Virus record (IMG/VR): IMGVR_UViG_3300042540_000949
Coordinates: 1-64,000 of that record
DNA length: 64,000 nt
Source of the DNA: a virus
Direction: 5' to 3' (one strand)
The notes under the pieces were generated by a model. That model searched no databases, was not told where the DNA came from, and was given only the letters and a program-made list of their open reading frames with translations. The first letter of the stretch is position 1. The number at the start of each line of letters is the position of its first letter. The position numbers and the translations under genes are program-made. Below are positions 45,739 to 60,753 of this stretch, in pieces.

Positions 45739-47712
45739 TTATGGTGTTCCTGTATCGCAGCATCCGTCAACTACGTTTTCTGCTATAAAGTAATACAAAA
45801 CATTTTCACCATCGGTATATTTGCATATTTTGGCTATGTGATAAATGTCACCACCAGTTCCCGGTGTAAATGTACTTGATGATTCACCGATAGGTCTATA
45901 ATTAAACCCACTGGGCAAACAAGAAGGAACCCAACCAGGTGCCAAATAATTTCCTGTTGTACCACGTTCATTTAGATTTATAGCCCAAGTTTCATCTTGA
46001 GTTGGAGAAGACGCTAACCCCGAAGGCTTCCAATTTTCAATTTGATGGAAGTAAATTCCTCCACATGCGCCACACGCCCCGCATGCACCTCCCGCCCCAC
46101 AAGCACCACACGCACCAGAACTTCCAGAAAACTGCAATTCGTTCCATCTATAACGATATATATTTGCCCCTGACGTTCCTTTAGTTGAATCTAATTCATA
46201 TCTAGTTAATGCGGCAAAGAAACAGTTTTCTCCACTTTCTTTTCCCATGCAACATAGTACATAACCAACAAAGTTTTGTAATTCTATTTTTCTGTATAAC
46301 TCTAATTGCTTTTGTGCACCACAAAGACCCTTTTCAAATGAACGATATCTTCCGTTAATGACTTTTTGTAAATTTGTATTTACACCAATAATTCCGCCAG
46401 CATCTGGATAATTTGGATCCAGTGGAGTCAAATCAAACATATTTTTCCACATTTCGGTGTTGTCAACGTAAGGCATATAACCGGAAGATCCCATCAAATT
46501 CATATTTTTATATGCCGAATCAGTTCCAAATACTTGTCCTATGTGAGTTAAATGACTAACATGATTCATGGAGTCTAGATCGTCATAATAACCCCAGTGA
46601 TTTGTATAGTGCAATTGATCTGATCCTGGGATTGCAGTCGCCCCCGGTGCTGTTGTTATCAATTCAATGTTATATTTTTGTCCTTCATCTTGGTATTGAT
46701 ATGACAAATCAGAATAAATTCGTAAATCTTTTTCTCCATTATCTGCACACAAACCGGGTGGCAAAACATCCAACACCTTTGGAGTTTTTCTAATGTAATA
46801 GTAATTTTTTGAAATGAATTGATATGCTGGATCTGTACTGAAGAAATAAATTTTTCTATACAGTTTTGTTGGATCTATTCCAGAGCCTGCTGGTGGTGTC
46901 ATTTTTTGCAAAACAGCTTCACCATCATAGATACCAAAATTTCTATTATTTGTATAAACTATTCCATTTACAACAGATGTTGTTCGATTGTCTATATTTC
47001 CAAAAGAAGGATCGGAATTTAGTTTATCATCATATCTAAATGCCTTAAAATTAACTGTTCCATCAAATTCAGTCCAAAACATGTAAGTAGGTAATCTACT
47101 ATTATATTCTAAAGCATTTGTAGTAAGATAATTTAAGTAATTTAACGCATTGTCCGATACCATTTCTTCGCGGGAATCCATGGTATTAATTGGGCGATAC
47201 AAAACATAGTTTGAAGTAATATCATTGTATCCACCACTGTAACCAAAAAAACTGGATTTTACTCTAGCAACAAAATCATGAATAAATTCTACTGATGGTT
47301 TTTTGTTTCCCAATAGTTGGTTTAAAGAAGTTTGTTGTGCTTTTTTGTAATAGGTGTTTGTAAAATATATGCCAACAAAGTTTTCTTCTGTTTCCGATGC
47401 TGCGTTGTTTAAGTAACTTACGCTAGTGATATCTAAATTCCACACATTTGAATTAAAAAATTCAACATAAATTTTAGATATTTCAAATTGTTTTATTCTT
47501 GAGACAATGTCCTTGGTATCTCTTACAATCAAAACTCCATTTGGAAAAATGTCATTGACATTTTCAACAAACTCAATTCTTTCAAATTGACATTCTGTGT
47601 TTTGTCTTAAAATATTAAGTCGAACAGTAGTTGATGGAATAGACTCATCATCAAGGTAAATGGCCTTAATAGTAGAATATGCAGGATTATACTGTGATTG
47701 TGTGTTTGCCAT
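45739..47712 (-). CDS. Baseplate hub protein, gp27-like N-terminal and middle
   Basis: A 657-residue protein. The N-terminal part (VRLNILRQNTECQFERIEF, then PNGVLIVRDTKDIVSRIK) and YMFWTEFDGTVNFKAFRYDD resemble the first domains of T4 gp27 hub. The middle region is large and beta-rich. Near residues 545-570 it has a Gly/Ala/Cys repeat in which GAC triplets recur about seven times, an odd flexible or metal/disulfide-prone loop. A CTAAATA promoter ends 10 bases before the ATG. Confidence 0.6.
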   Translation of the reverse strand: MANTQSQYNPAYSTIKAIYLDDESIPSTTVRLNILRQNTECQFERIEFVENVNDIFPNGVLIVRDTKDIVSRIKQFEISKIYVEFFNSNVWNLDITSVSYLNNAASETEENFVGIYFTNTYYKKAQQTSLNQLLGNKKPSVEFIHDFVARVKSSFFGYSGGYNDITSNYVLYRPINTMDSREEMVSDNALNYLNYLTTNALEYNSRLPTYMFWTEFDGTVNFKAFRYDDKLNSDPSFGNIDNRTTSVVNGIVYTNNRNFGIYDGEAVLQKMTPPAGSGIDPTKLYRKIYFFSTDPAYQFISKNYYYIRKTPKVLDVLPPGLCADNGEKDLRIYSDLSYQYQDEGQKYNIELITTAPGATAIPGSDQLHYTNHWGYYDDLDSMNHVSHLTHIGQVFGTDSAYKNMNLMGSSGYMPYVDNTEMWKNMFDLTPLDPNYPDAGGIIGVNTNLQKVINGRYRSFEKGLCGAQKQLELYRKIELQNFVGYVLCCMGKESGENCFFAALTRYELDSTKGTSGANIYRYRWNELQFSGSSGACGACGAGGACGACGACGGIYFHQIENWKPSGLASSPTQDETWAINLNERGTTGNYLAPGWVPSCLPSGFNYRPIGESSSTFTPGTGGDIYHIAKICKYTDGENVLYYFIAENVVDGCCDTGTP

Positions 47713-49869: not shown

Positions 49870-50428
49870 TATCAAACAATTTTTTGATCGTCATAATGGC
49901 CTTCAAAGAGATAATCGTTTCTCAGTGAGTTTTGAAGGACTGCCTCAAGGTTTGCCTAGTTTAGGTGAACCCGGAAACAGTTTAAAAACAGCAATGGTTG
50001 AAATGGGAACCAGAGCAATGGACACGGTGGCAGATAACTTAATTGGTTATGGTCCGGGAAGAATGGTTCCTCGGTATCAAAAATTTCCAGGTGGAGTATT
50101 ATTGACCATACCTGTAACAAACGATCACCATGCAACAAATTTTTTCAATGCTTGGTTTAATCTTCTTTACGGTGGTGGAAGACTAAGAGGGGCGCTTTCA
50201 TCACCATTTCAATTGACATGGTACCACGAAACCATCTATCCAACAAAAATGATTGTAGATGCCTTAGATCCAAATGGAAATGTCAATCGCAAATTTACGT
50301 TTTTTGAAGTGTACCCCATGGAAACAATTCCATTTCAATTTTCCATGGAAAACAATAATCAGTTTTTAAAATATAGTATTTTGATGAACTATAGAGAATT
50401 TACAATGAGTGAGCAATTAAATGCCTAA
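49850..50428 (+). CDS. Tube-fold baseplate protein (gp54/gp19-like)
   Basis: A 192-residue protein: IKQFFDRHNGLQRDNRFSV, then GRMVPRYQKFPGGVLLTIPV and YPMETIPFQFSMENNN. The 'NGLQRDNRF' start and the Pro-Gly-Gly strand pair are those of gp19-type tube proteins. Gene order next to gp48 suggests the baseplate ring from which the tail tube grows (gp54 role). It is the fourth tube-fold protein in the window. Its stop overlaps the gp26 start by eight bases. Confidence 0.5.
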   Translation: MPTPIIDIKQFFDRHNGLQRDNRFSVSFEGLPQGLPSLGEPGNSLKTAMVEMGTRAMDTVADNLIGYGPGRMVPRYQKFPGGVLLTIPVTNDHHATNFFNAWFNLLYGGGRLRGALSSPFQLTWYHETIYPTKMIVDALDPNGNVNRKFTFFEVYPMETIPFQFSMENNNQFLKYSILMNYREFTMSEQLNA

Positions 50429-51092
50429 TACAAATATATTCGATAATATTAATAATTTTATTCAAACGTATGAAACAACTTTGCCTTTTTCTCAAAAAAA
50501 GGTTTCATTTAGACCCTTTAGAGTAAAGGATGCCAAAATACTTGGTCTGATTCTTCAGGAAGACAACAAAAAATTGGCTTTCAAAAACATGGTAGAATTG
50601 TTGAAAAACACAACTACCGAAGCTGAGATTGATGATCTTTGTTTAGCCGATGCAGAATACTTATTCCTGCAAATAAGATCCAAAAGTGTCGATGAGATAT
50701 TGAATTTGGTGTACCAAGAAGAAAAGATACAAGTTCAAATTGCAGACATAAAGTATAGAAATCAAATTGCAGAACAGGAAATTTCAATAGGTCCAAACAT
50801 TTCTTTGGTATTGAGAACACCAACTGTAAAAGATTTGCTAAGACTTGAAACCTTTGACAAACAAGAATATGGTAAAGCCTGCATTGAAAAAATTATCGCA
50901 AATGGTGAAATATACAAACTAAACAAGTTTGTTACCGAAGACATCAAATCATCAATAGACAATCTTCCTCTTTCCGTATTGTCAAAAATAGATGTATTTT
51001 TAAAGAAACAACCTGAACTATACATCAACTTGCAGTTGACTGATGAACAAAAGGAGGTATCTGGTCTTCTAAATTTTTTTACCTTTCGGTAA
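50421..51092 (+). CDS. 26: gp26-like baseplate assembly protein (0-frame product)
   Basis: A 223-residue protein with KKVSFRPFRVKDAKILGLIL near 24-44 and IGPNISLVLRTPTVKDLLRL near 130-150, the paired motifs of the T4 gp26 baseplate family. Near its end the mRNA has a run of seven T bases, a 7-base spacer and a perfect stem, which would redirect a share of ribosomes into a 68-residue extension. The 0-frame version ends NFFTFR. It is likely a hub/tail assembly chaperone and not a major virion part. Confidence 0.7.
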   Translation: MPNTNIFDNINNFIQTYETTLPFSQKKVSFRPFRVKDAKILGLILQEDNKKLAFKNMVELLKNTTTEAEIDDLCLADAEYLFLQIRSKSVDEILNLVYQEEKIQVQIADIKYRNQIAEQEISIGPNISLVLRTPTVKDLLRLETFDKQEYGKACIEKIIANGEIYKLNKFVTEDIKSSIDNLPLSVLSKIDVFLKKQPELYINLQLTDEQKEVSGLLNFFTFR

Positions 51093-51133
51093 AGTTTATT
51101 GATCTGAGAGATTATTTCAGCACAAACTTTACC
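51074..51133 (+). promoter_or_regulatory. Programmed -1 frameshift signal
   Basis: Seven T bases (51074-51080) give the slip site T-TTT-TTT in the gp26 frame. A 7-base spacer (51081-51087) precedes a perfect 10-bp inverted repeat (51088-51097 with 51124-51133) whose loop holds a smaller CTGA/TCAG pair. A -1 slip at this site leads straight into the open frame that ends at 51286. Slip site, spacing and stem match known -1 signals. Confidence 0.75.
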
Positions 51134-51286
51134 ATGATGAACAATTTTTCTTGGTCTTTGCAAGACATAGAAAACATGGTTTATTGGGAAAGAGAAATAT
51201 ATGTTAAGTTGATTGCTGAATTCAAACAGAAAAAAGAGCAGCAAATGATGGAACAGATGTACAAACAAAATTACAATAGCCTATGA
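51080..51286 (+). CDS. Frameshift extension of the gp26 product (gp51-like tail)
   Basis: Read in the -1 frame from the slip site, codons run YLSVKFIDLRDYFSTNF then MMNNFSWSLQDIENMVYWE and EREIYVKLIAEF, ending at TGA 51284-51286, so the fused protein is about 288 residues. The extension has no stop codon for its whole length, starts exactly at the slip site and its own first ATG (51134) has no Shine-Dalgarno, which favours access by frameshift. Length and Trp/Tyr-Glu-Arg composition recall the T part of G/GT tail assembly chaperones. It overlaps the next start codon as ATGA. Confidence 0.65.
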   Translation, partial: YLSVKFIDLRDYFSTNFTMMNNFSWSLQDIENMVYWEREIYVKLIAEFKQKKEQQMMEQMYKQNYNSL

Positions 51287-51732
51287 ACGAAGAAAAAGAA
51301 CAAATTACAGAAAATAGATTCTCTTTGGATATGCAAACAGAGATTCAGGCAATGACTCCACTTATTGAGCCTGATCCATTATTGCCTTCCGATATTGTAA
51401 ACATACTTCCTAGCATTGAACTTTCTGAGAGTGTTCCGTTTACGGCAACCGAAATCAAAATAGGAAGTGCTGCAAAAGCACAATTTGCAGAAATTAGTGG
51501 GTTGGACTATTCTGTAACCGATACTGAAATGCTAACCAAGCAGTTTAGTGGCATGGAAACCAAAATCAAAGAACTTCAAGGTGGTTTTCAGGATTTGTAC
51601 AGCAATGCAAAAAATCCAAATTTACCAAATAGTGAAACAGATGATTTTGAGGAAAGACCGACTACTGAACCAAGAAACTTGATATTTGATGAACGGCGTG
51701 CCAAAATGAGTGAGCCACCAAGTTGGGCATAA
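51283..51732 (+). CDS. Unknown protein at end of the tail-assembly unit
   Basis: A 149-residue protein starting MNEEKEQITENRFSLDM and rich in Glu, Thr, Ser and Pro, with a hydrophobic/acidic middle (SGLDYSVTDTEMLTKQF) and an apparently disordered, charged C-terminus. No family recognised. It starts inside the end of the frameshift extension (ATGA) and ends at a strong terminator, so it is the last gene of the gp4-gp26 unit. A tail-assembly or regulatory role is possible. Confidence 0.6.
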   Translation: MNEEKEQITENRFSLDMQTEIQAMTPLIEPDPLLPSDIVNILPSIELSESVPFTATEIKIGSAAKAQFAEISGLDYSVTDTEMLTKQFSGMETKIKELQGGFQDLYSNAKNPNLPNSETDDFEERPTTEPRNLIFDERRAKMSEPPSWA

Positions 51733-57555: not shown

Positions 57556-60500
57556 TTACGTTAATGTTATTGTGCAAGTTTGTGAACCATCATAATCATC
57601 ATACATTTCAGGGCAAATAAATCCATCCGAACAGATCCAACATCTTGGATTTACCATTGTTACGTTTGGATTTTCCTCAAATTGTTGCAAAGTTCTCCAA
57701 GTTCTAACCACATTTCTTTCAATAACTTCACATGGACCCGGAACAGGATCGCATGCATATGACAGTGGACGAGCCAAACCACATCCACTTTGTCCCCAAG
57801 CCATACATGGTTGTTCTACACAACATTTTGGTAAAGGTTTTCCTTGATAATATACTGTGATAGAATGTAACTGGGAAGCAAAATATACAATCATTTCTTC
57901 TCTTTGAATAATCTTATTTCCTTGTGGTATAAAAGATGTATTATATTCAGCAGAAATAAAAACATCACCCGGAATATTATTGTCCAAACTTCTTTTTCCA
58001 CCAATCCAATAACTGTCTGGTCCTAATTGTGTTGCAACATATTTGCCACCAGAATATTGATTGAGTTTTTGAACATAAGTACTTAACCGACACCCTGCTG
58101 CAATAATTCGTGGACCTTCATTAGAAGGTTCTCCTGTATCATTTTCACAACCCGGTCCAAAGTCTCCATATTCTCTATAAATTGGTATATATCCTGCCGG
58201 AATTGAACTATATGGTACACAACCAGGATTATCTGGATCAACTACAACACATTCAGCCACAATAGAATAACCAGGATCTCTAAATGTTCTTTCATTTATT
58301 GCTGAAGCATCTGGTATTCCCGTTATATCTGGGACTATTCCACATGAAGCAATATAATCAAAACAACCCTCAGCCCACCCAGAACCTGCTAAACCACCAA
58401 TACCAGCCGAGCCTTCATTATTAAATGAAAAATTATTTCCAAAATTATCTATTGGAAATGGGCAGTATAAAAAGAAAGTCGGAGAACCGGGTGTAGTTGG
58501 TGGATTAAAACATCCAGGTACTGGTGGTAAGTCACAATTTCCACTATCTCTGGATTCTGTATATGTTCCAGTATTGGGATCTAAATAAGTCACATTATAA
58601 GAAGCACTGTCACTATAGGAGCCATCAAAATCACAATCACATAGTTCAATTTTGTTACAACCAGCATCAAATGGTAATCTACCATTAAAAGAAATGCTTA
58701 CATCAACTGTAGCCCTGTATGGTGATGTTCCACTCCAATATTCACGAACTTCCACGCAACAATTTGGAGGATTTCCTTGGCCACCAGTATTGTTTTCAGG
58801 ATTTGTTCCACCTTCTTGATTTTCACAATCATTGTTTTGTGGTCCATCGCCAAATGGATTAGAACAAGAATCACATGGATTTTCTAATATTACTTCTCCT
58901 ATCGAACCTCTGTTATAAAATTGATCACCAAAAGGTTCCCATAAAGAAGTTTTCCAAACTAAGTAGTACCAATTGTCTTTCTTTGTATAAAATATGTCTG
59001 GATAATCATCTGGATTTTGACAAGAAATAAATGGTTCGGGACAAATTTGAACAGGTTGGCAAGGACAATTGTTTACGTTAAAGCAATTAATTATTTTGTC
59101 ATCTTCATTTGTAATTTCGCATATAGGCAGAGCATACAAACCTTTGCAACAATCCGCATAAGGTCTGCAACCAATATCTGTAAATACTGCATCCTCGGGA
59201 ACCAAGTAGTCGGGATCACACAAAACACCACACTGATAAGAAAGATAATACAATTCTCCGTCATACTTAAATGTTCTGTATTTTACTTCTTGAACTTCTC
59301 CTGTTGGTGTTTCGTTTGGTAAAGTAAAACCAGAAGGACCACAAGATCCACAGACACCAGTGCAAACAAATGCACCAACCCAAGCACCACCACACCCTCC
59401 ACCGATTGGAAAGTCTTTTGCAGGACCCGAACTACCTCTATTTACTGCTCCCGTTGTACCCCTTCCATCTATAACTGTATCAAATCCAATTAAAGACGAT
59501 CCACCACACGGATAATAACCAGATGCACCACATGAACCACATGTTCCGCAACAATTGTTTATTTTATCACAGATATATCCAGCCTGCTCATCAGTCAAAC
59601 AAATATAGGTTTTATCTGGAATCTCTGAAAGAGATTCATTACAGGGACATCGTAATGCAGCAAATTGAATGGCAATTTTTCCGGGCATTCCATTTTCTGA
59701 ATTATTTTTAGGAACATAACCAACCACTCCATTTATTTGCTCCAACCCCCCAATGCTTGAAACATCAGTGGTCCAATACATAGGATCACACATATTTGGT
59801 GGACCATTATCAGTTCCTGACCTTGCCAAAGGATCTATGGTGCTGCTTCCACCACCTCCACCAAATCCCGTTTTTCCTCCACCTCCACCACCTCTCAATC
59901 CACCGCCACCACCACCGCCACCAACAATAGATCCACGTCCACCACTAGATACTATTCCACTTTGGGCACCACATCCACCACAACCACCCTGTGTTTGATT
60001 TCCACCAAATCCCCCATCTGGTCCGTTTGCTTTTTTTCCTGCAGTAACTCCACCATGACCTCCACCACTGCTGTCGTTTCCTGCACCACCACCTCCACCA
60101 GCAATTAAAAATGCACTTTGTGGTTGCATCATATTCTCAGAAACAAAAGCAGCACCACCACCCCATGAACCAAATCCTTGTCCACCACCACCGGGGACGG
60201 TGGAAATATTTCCAGTCCATCCAGTTACGCTTCTGGTGGTATTTGCACCCAATCCACCAAAGCCAACACAGGCAACATAATTTTTATTGTATGGTCCTCT
60301 TTTTTGGGTATACGCTCCATTGCCTCCGGGAAGGTTTATGATTTTTCCACCACCCCCAGCACCCCATGCTTTGTAAAGCAATCCTCTTTCTTCATCTAAA
60401 ATTAAATCATAACATTTTTGCTGAATGCAGCCACCAAATCCACCATTGTAACTACCAAATGCACCTCCAGAACTTTGATCAGCACAACTTATTCCTTTAA

Positions 60501-60753
60501 TTTTAATTGGAACACTTGTATAACCAAAATCAAAATCTGGAAAGGGAAAATATGGATGCAATATACCAAAAGGACCACAAATCCCTAAAGCAGGATTGTT
60601 TTTTAAAAGTTGTTCTATTTGGGACATTGAGGCATTACCAGCAAAACCAGTAAAGCCATCGTCATTATAACCACCAAAAAATTTAGTACCCCAATATCTA
60701 CAGGGTATTGCTATCCAATGTCCTTTACCACAACAACAAGCTTTTGTTGGCAT
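57556..60753 (-). CDS. Giant Gly/Cys-rich virion adhesin
   Basis: A 1065-residue protein. After a Cys-rich start (KACCCGKGHWIAIPCRYWG) comes a glycine-rich region (about 130-310) made of GGGG-type runs interspersed with aromatic or polar residues, the pattern of polyglycine-helix sandwich adhesin tips. The remaining two thirds contain many Cys and Pro (for example CGSCGASGYYPCG), beta-rich segments and a C-terminal CIICSDGFICPEMYDD-like Cys region. Probably a receptor-binding fibre or tip protein. It has TATAAATA 24 bases upstream and AAGGA. Confidence 0.7.
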   Translation of the reverse strand: MPTKACCCGKGHWIAIPCRYWGTKFFGGYNDDGFTGFAGNASMSQIEQLLKNNPALGICGPFGILHPYFPFPDFDFGYTSVPIKIKGISCADQSSGGAFGSYNGGFGGCIQQKCYDLILDEERGLLYKAWGAGGGGKIINLPGGNGAYTQKRGPYNKNYVACVGFGGLGANTTRSVTGWTGNISTVPGGGGQGFGSWGGGAAFVSENMMQPQSAFLIAGGGGGAGNDSSGGGHGGVTAGKKANGPDGGFGGNQTQGGCGGCGAQSGIVSSGGRGSIVGGGGGGGGLRGGGGGGKTGFGGGGGSSTIDPLARSGTDNGPPNMCDPMYWTTDVSSIGGLEQINGVVGYVPKNNSENGMPGKIAIQFAALRCPCNESLSEIPDKTYICLTDEQAGYICDKINNCCGTCGSCGASGYYPCGGSSLIGFDTVIDGRGTTGAVNRGSSGPAKDFPIGGGCGGAWVGAFVCTGVCGSCGPSGFTLPNETPTGEVQEVKYRTFKYDGELYYLSYQCGVLCDPDYLVPEDAVFTDIGCRPYADCCKGLYALPICEITNEDDKIINCFNVNNCPCQPVQICPEPFISCQNPDDYPDIFYTKKDNWYYLVWKTSLWEPFGDQFYNRGSIGEVILENPCDSCSNPFGDGPQNNDCENQEGGTNPENNTGGQGNPPNCCVEVREYWSGTSPYRATVDVSISFNGRLPFDAGCNKIELCDCDFDGSYSDSASYNVTYLDPNTGTYTESRDSGNCDLPPVPGCFNPPTTPGSPTFFLYCPFPIDNFGNNFSFNNEGSAGIGGLAGSGWAEGCFDYIASCGIVPDITGIPDASAINERTFRDPGYSIVAECVVVDPDNPGCVPYSSIPAGYIPIYREYGDFGPGCENDTGEPSNEGPRIIAAGCRLSTYVQKLNQYSGGKYVATQLGPDSYWIGGKRSLDNNIPGDVFISAEYNTSFIPQGNKIIQREEMIVYFASQLHSITVYYQGKPLPKCCVEQPCMAWGQSGCGLARPLSYACDPVPGPCEVIERNVVRTWRTLQQFEENPNVTMVNPRCWICSDGFICPEMYDDYDGSQTCTITLT

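Follow-up and report, generated by a model that had tools for sequence, protein, structure and literature searches.

Predicted -1 frameshifting at a gp26/gp51 junction: a T4-superfamily tail assembly chaperone very probably made in two lengths

The locus analyzed here raises the question of whether a gp26-like gene of a T4-superfamily phage yields a single protein ending at its own stop codon, or whether part of the ribosomes change frame just ahead of that stop and read on into a second domain. The gene lies in a stretch of 64,000 nucleotides (hereafter "the window") that forms part of a virus record of 79,060 bases, and the placement of the window in the T4 superfamily rests on its major head protein, scaffold, portal, terminase and gp32-like proteins, which match the corresponding phrogs. 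Sequence comparison provides very strong evidence for programmed -1 frameshifting at the gp26/gp51 junction, and the locus very probably encodes a T4-superfamily tail assembly chaperone (TAC) in two lengths, a short gp26 and a long gp26-51, of the lambda G/GT kind. The elements concerned are the following.

50421-51092, plus strand: gp26-like gene, its 0-frame product being the predicted short chaperone form (TAC-N), 223 aa (PF12322, phrog_150)
51051-51058, plus strand: putative internal Shine-Dalgarno-like element AAGGAGGT, codons K-E-V (anti-Shine-Dalgarno match, codon bias)
51074-51080, plus strand: slippery heptamer T_TTT_TTT, in phase (sequence, homologous junctions)
51080-51286, plus strand: -1 frame, predicted C-terminal domain (gp51/TAC-C), 68 codons and stop (phrog_634)
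51088-51133, plus strand: candidate stimulatory stem-loop with a 10-bp outer stem (51088-51097/51124-51133) and an inner hairpin, spanning the gp26 stop (folding, compensatory changes)
51090-51092, plus strand: 0-frame stop TAA of gp26 (read from the sequence)
51283-51732, plus strand: next gene, an unknown protein of 149 aa (no match in a Pfam search)

By its profile matches, the 0-frame protein belongs to the T4 gp26 family: residues 16-220 match PF12322 (T4_baseplate) with E=4.8e-28 and 98.8 bits against a curated cut-off of 24.5, and the match to phrog_150 (baseplate hub) has E=3.8e-27. An AlphaFold2 model of the protein (mean pLDDT 92.6) matches other gp26 proteins in BFVD. A PDB sequence search with gp26 found no homologue, and fold comparison of the model gave no convincing match, that to the HK97 tail assembly chaperone 2ob9 being weak (E=1.6, TMt 0.38).

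At its 3' end the gene reads AAT(51072) TTT(51075) TTT(51078) ACC TTT CGG TAA in the 0 frame, so that the heptamer T_TTT_TTT at 51074-51080 stands in the classical X_XXY_YYZ phase relative to gp26. From 51080 the -1 frame reads YLSVKFIDLRDYF... and runs to a TGA at 51284-51286. A spacer of 7 nt (51081-51087) separates the heptamer from the stem, whose two arms, GGTAAAGTTT (51088-51097) and AAACTTTACC (51124-51133), are exactly reverse-complementary. All of this agrees with the initial annotation, made from the sequence alone, which had described the 0-frame stop, the slip site, the spacer, the perfect 10-bp stem and the 68 open codons ending at 51286. Bare TTTTTTT is common in the AT-rich window, with 38 occurrences on the plus strand, and the T-run alone would therefore mean little; the case for a frameshift is carried by phase, open frame, homology and conservation.

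The -1 product matches phrog_634 (gp51, baseplate hub assembly catalyst) with E=3e-16 over profile positions 64-119 of 121 and also, weakly, the end of the phrog_150 profile. An HMM built from the -1-frame domains of relatives recovers both the -1 product of the window (E=8e-29) and T4 gp51 (E=2.7e-8). The -1 frame thus falls in the gp51 family, and the frameshift would join gp26 to gp51. The two-length T4-like chaperone proposed by the initial annotation is retained here, while the gp51 identity of its second part had gone unrecognised.

Conservation was assessed on homologues from five IMG/VR scans with gp26 proteins, whose search patterns did not include the slip site, and from twelve GenBank regions, together with the window itself. 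These sources gave 336 closed gp26 ORFs, 276 of them distinct at the junction and forming, by protein identity, 211 clusters at 90%, 118 at 70% and 29 at 50%. An in-phase T_TTT_TTN occurs within the last nine gp26 codons of every distinct junction (276/276), as TTTTTTC in 172, TTTTTTT in 93, TTTTTTA in 10 and TTTTTTG in 1. Past the slip site the -1 frame is open for 55-69 codons at all 275 testable junctions, L245 having been left out of this count as its contig ends 40 nt after the slip site. Neither pattern named at the outset as contrary to frameshifting was thus encountered, no homologue lacking the slip site and none having a stop codon between the two frames; a chaperone of two lengths produced by -1 frameshifting, as originally proposed, is the best reading of the sequences. 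Related sequences are not independent, yet 29 clusters below 50% identity make a chance account untenable. A T-run that is a mere by-product of a conserved Phe-Phe pair is ruled out by the background, T preceding TTT TTY at only 103 of 890 other Phe-Phe pairs (11.6%) in long ORFs of the same contigs. The codon ahead of the slippery pair invariably ends in T, although the residue it encodes may be S, N, D, A, T or R. In a small subgroup (L284, L220, L192, L226, L258, L223) gp26 extends to the eighth codon past the slip site, and the short form gains an extra tail that overlaps the gp51 coding sequence.

The principal alternative is that gp51 is an ordinary separate gene, translated from its own start (ATG 51134 in the window) by direct initiation or by reinitiation, with an incidental T-run. 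Cyanophage and other records do annotate gp26 and gp51 separately, and some relatives have an ATG 2-3 codons into the -1 frame. In the window, however, the first ATG of this frame lies 42 nt past the gp26 stop, beyond the stem, and no Shine-Dalgarno sequence precedes it, just as the initial annotation had noted for the downstream ORF. Read in the -1 frame, the 18 codons ahead of this ATG show conservation at the protein level, and they can be aligned with the gp51 domain. Within the window's group, 59% of the differences over the 16 codons after the slip (436 pairs) fall at the third position of the -1 frame, a bias that shows the signature of translation in this frame upstream of any ATG. Among the 211 representatives, 97 have no ATG, GTG or TTG within the first 8 codons of the -1 frame, and none of the others, in which a start codon is present, has a Shine-Dalgarno sequence of at least 4 bases 5-16 nt before it. 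A separate gene, moreover, would have no need of T_TTT_TTN at every junction. An independent gp51 gene is very improbable as an account of the locus, and in those cyanophages with an ATG 2-3 codons after the slip some free gp51 could still be made by reinitiation.

Slippage of RNA polymerase rather than of the ribosome is less probable still. Poly-T runs are known sites of transcriptional slippage in other genes, and the run in the window comprises 7 T's; in the 276 homologues, though, its length is 6 in 183, 7 in 79 and 8 in 14, and six T's are short for such a mechanism. The run begins at a third codon base in every homologue, a register that only codon-by-codon slippage would demand, and both the stem and the Shine-Dalgarno-like element fit ribosomal stimulation. 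Least credible of all is that sequencing or assembly went wrong, or that the gene has decayed and an indel has split a single gp26-gp51 frame. T-runs are error-prone, and T4 gp51 is indeed a single-frame protein, but the same layout is shared by 276 distinct junctions from both IMG/VR and isolate genomes, so that comparison of the sequences already contradicts this explanation.

Programmed ribosomal frameshifting, the preferred reading, is further supported by candidate stimulatory elements on both sides of the heptamer. The initial annotation had described the slip site and the stem, both of which stand, and had overlooked the Shine-Dalgarno-like AAGGAGGT at 51051-51058, located 15 nt upstream of the heptamer. 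In the group to which the window belongs, in which the slip site lies 4 codons before the gp26 stop (j=4), a match of 8 or 9 bases to the anti-Shine-Dalgarno complement occurs in 28 of 33 members, against 0 of 132 control windows. The element is encoded by AAG GAG in 28 of 30 members of the window's clade, where gp26 codon usage predicts 2.3%. The claim is limited to this clade because elsewhere GGAGG partly reflects Leu-Glu-Gly codons.

Downstream, the 60 nt following the slip site in the window fold with z = -4.1, and an 81-nt segment gives z = -2.8, with 1 of 200 shuffles as good. The median z of the downstream 60 nt is -3.4 in the j=4 group (n=25) and -2.2 in the commonest other group (j=2, n=76), whereas a control region within the genes themselves gives -0.14. 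Of 46 distinct sequences, 43-46 retain each of the stem pairs 51088-51096/51125-51133. In L176 and L177 two pairs have changed in a compensatory manner, from A-U to G-C at 51091/51130 and from G-C to A-U at 51094/51127, both changes being synonymous in the -1 frame; this covariation is modest, as it comes from two sequences that probably represent one branch. Apparent pair changes in L306, L310 and L335 were not counted as compensation, these not being close relatives; all three are j=4 members with neither the Shine-Dalgarno-like element nor the stem of the window's clade.

All three parts of a dnaX-type cassette are therefore present at the window locus, namely an upstream Shine-Dalgarno-like element, a slippery heptamer and a downstream stem. 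In E. coli dnaX the heptamer is A_AAA_AAG instead of T_TTT_TTT, and the Shine-Dalgarno spacing is about 10, the 15 nt of the window being longer; in the window, unlike dnaX, the -1 product is the longer one. It is conceivable, if rather doubtful, that the clade's combination of an 8-nt Shine-Dalgarno-like element, T_TTT_TTT and a 10-bp stem raises frameshifting well above the few percent of lambda. The long form would then be abundant, at a short/long ratio unlike that of other T4-like phages, and the clade would have its own tuning of chaperone stoichiometry.

According to the proposed mechanism, most ribosomes would stop at the TAA ending at 51092 and release the short gp26 form (TAC-N). The stem-loop at 51088-51133, together with pairing of 16S rRNA to the element at 51051-51058, would make some ribosomes pause, whereupon both Phe-tRNAs could slip from TTT_TTT into the -1 frame at 51074-51080. 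The slipped ribosomes would continue to 51286 and produce a gp26-gp51 fusion of 288 residues, the long form (TAC-NC). If lambda gpG/gpGT is a guide, a coat of many short copies with a few long ones may form on the tape measure protein, and tail tube subunits may be brought in by the gp51 part of the long form. We infer a chaperone role because the products are homologous to T4 gp26/gp51 and the G/GT layout is present, with a slip site in phase close to the 3' end of the short ORF and, beyond it, an open -1 frame that codes for a conserved domain. The slip site of lambda itself is not T_TTT_TTY. In lambda gpG/gpGT and P2 E/E', as in the window, a short protein with a slip near its end is accompanied by a longer -1 form (PMC5009743), the likeness being one of layout. 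In the lambda precedent, coating of the tape measure is the task of the short protein, and the long form uses its extension to bring in tail tube subunits (PMC5009743).

The surroundings of the locus offer a few further observations. In the window, gp26/gp51 is followed by the 149-aa gene and then by a strand switch; in the genomes of Cr30 and HTVC008M, gp51 is followed by one small gene and next by one with a tape measure annotation. Of the large ORFs that were examined in window positions 1-64000, none could be identified as a tape measure gene. The ATG of the 149-aa gene overlaps the -1-frame stop (ATGA, 51283-51286), and this overlap is kept in 25 of 33 members of the j=4 group, which suggests translational coupling of the 149-aa gene to frameshifted ribosomes; the frameshifting level might thus also set the expression of this gene. 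Two large proteins of the window, encoded on the minus strand at 45739-47712 and 57556-60753, carry glycine- and cysteine-rich segments (GACGA, GGGG); a PHROG search with the one of 657 aa gave no match, and the other has 1065 aa. An Rfam scan of the window found no family at gathering score.

T4 itself has a different arrangement. T4 gp26 and gp51 are divergent genes on opposite strands, and neither has the slip site (GAG TTC TTT GAG in gp26, GTG TTT AAG in gp51). The PF12322 domain is found in both T4 proteins: T4 gp51 (249 aa) matches it over residues 1-201 and carries phrog_634 at its C-terminal end, the domain that constitutes the -1 frame of the window. Judged by these matches, T4 gp51 is an in-frame protein of a gp26-like and a gp51 domain and corresponds to the predicted long form, encoded by a gene of its own; a match covering at least 80% of it is found in 1,334 phage records. 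T4 would thus use two genes where the window phage and its relatives use one; in the 64-kb window a single gp26 homologue was found, with a slip site, and not the two-gene arrangement. One need would thereby have two solutions, frameshifting or two genes, and the survey supports T4 gp26 and gp51 as chaperones of the G/GT type. A 2010 review (PMC3004832) counts both among the hub assembly chaperones and describes gp51, whose function it still called unknown, as required yet absent from the final particle. According to Atkins et al. (2016, PMC5009743), long-tailed phages have conserved the G/GT layout "except T4". The TAC locus of Pseudomonas phage Adele (Vandenendeviridae), from another phage family, resembles that of the window in layout, with a -1 frame that is always open, a conserved T-rich slip motif (GTTTTT) and a downstream ORF misannotated as a separate gene (PMC12846349).

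The initial annotation did not know frameshifting to be described for the gp26 family, and in this respect it has to be amended. As cited in the PRFect (PMC10885494) and Adele (PMC12846349) papers, Vladimirov, Gautam and Davidson (Virology 2022, 566:9-15) are credited with poly-T slip signals in TAC-N genes of T4-like phages and with the finding that some T4-like phages encode the short form and the long fusion in one gene each. Literature searches by gp numbers returned no direct report of gp26/gp51 frameshifting. Frameshifting is reportedly conserved in several T4-like groups according to Vladimirov and colleagues, who are also said to have identified genes 26 and 51 as T4's TAC pair, an identification with which the present computations agree independently. 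Given this prior work, the frameshift in the window is not a new kind of signal, and the locus is a well-supported new instance of a frameshifted T4-like chaperone. Beyond what the citing papers convey of that study, the size of the survey, the clade's Shine-Dalgarno-like element and the stem changes may be additional, the clade consisting of uncultivated viruses that combine an 8-nt element of this kind with a compensatory stem.

The survey also argues for annotating gp51 as a frameshift extension of gp26. Cyanophage gp51 was reported to be without the first ~200 residues of T4 gp51 (PMC3037559), which such an extension would explain. In the public T4-like and cyanophage records examined, gp51 is a separate short gene, is missing (S-BM3, DSL-LC03, Cronobacter S13) or is annotated with a late start, by about 50 nt (HTVC008M, Melnitz-1). 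In GenBank records OQ319121 (L016), OR003938 (L017) and KC954775 (L018) gp51 is unannotated, and its frame sits in the gap after gp26.
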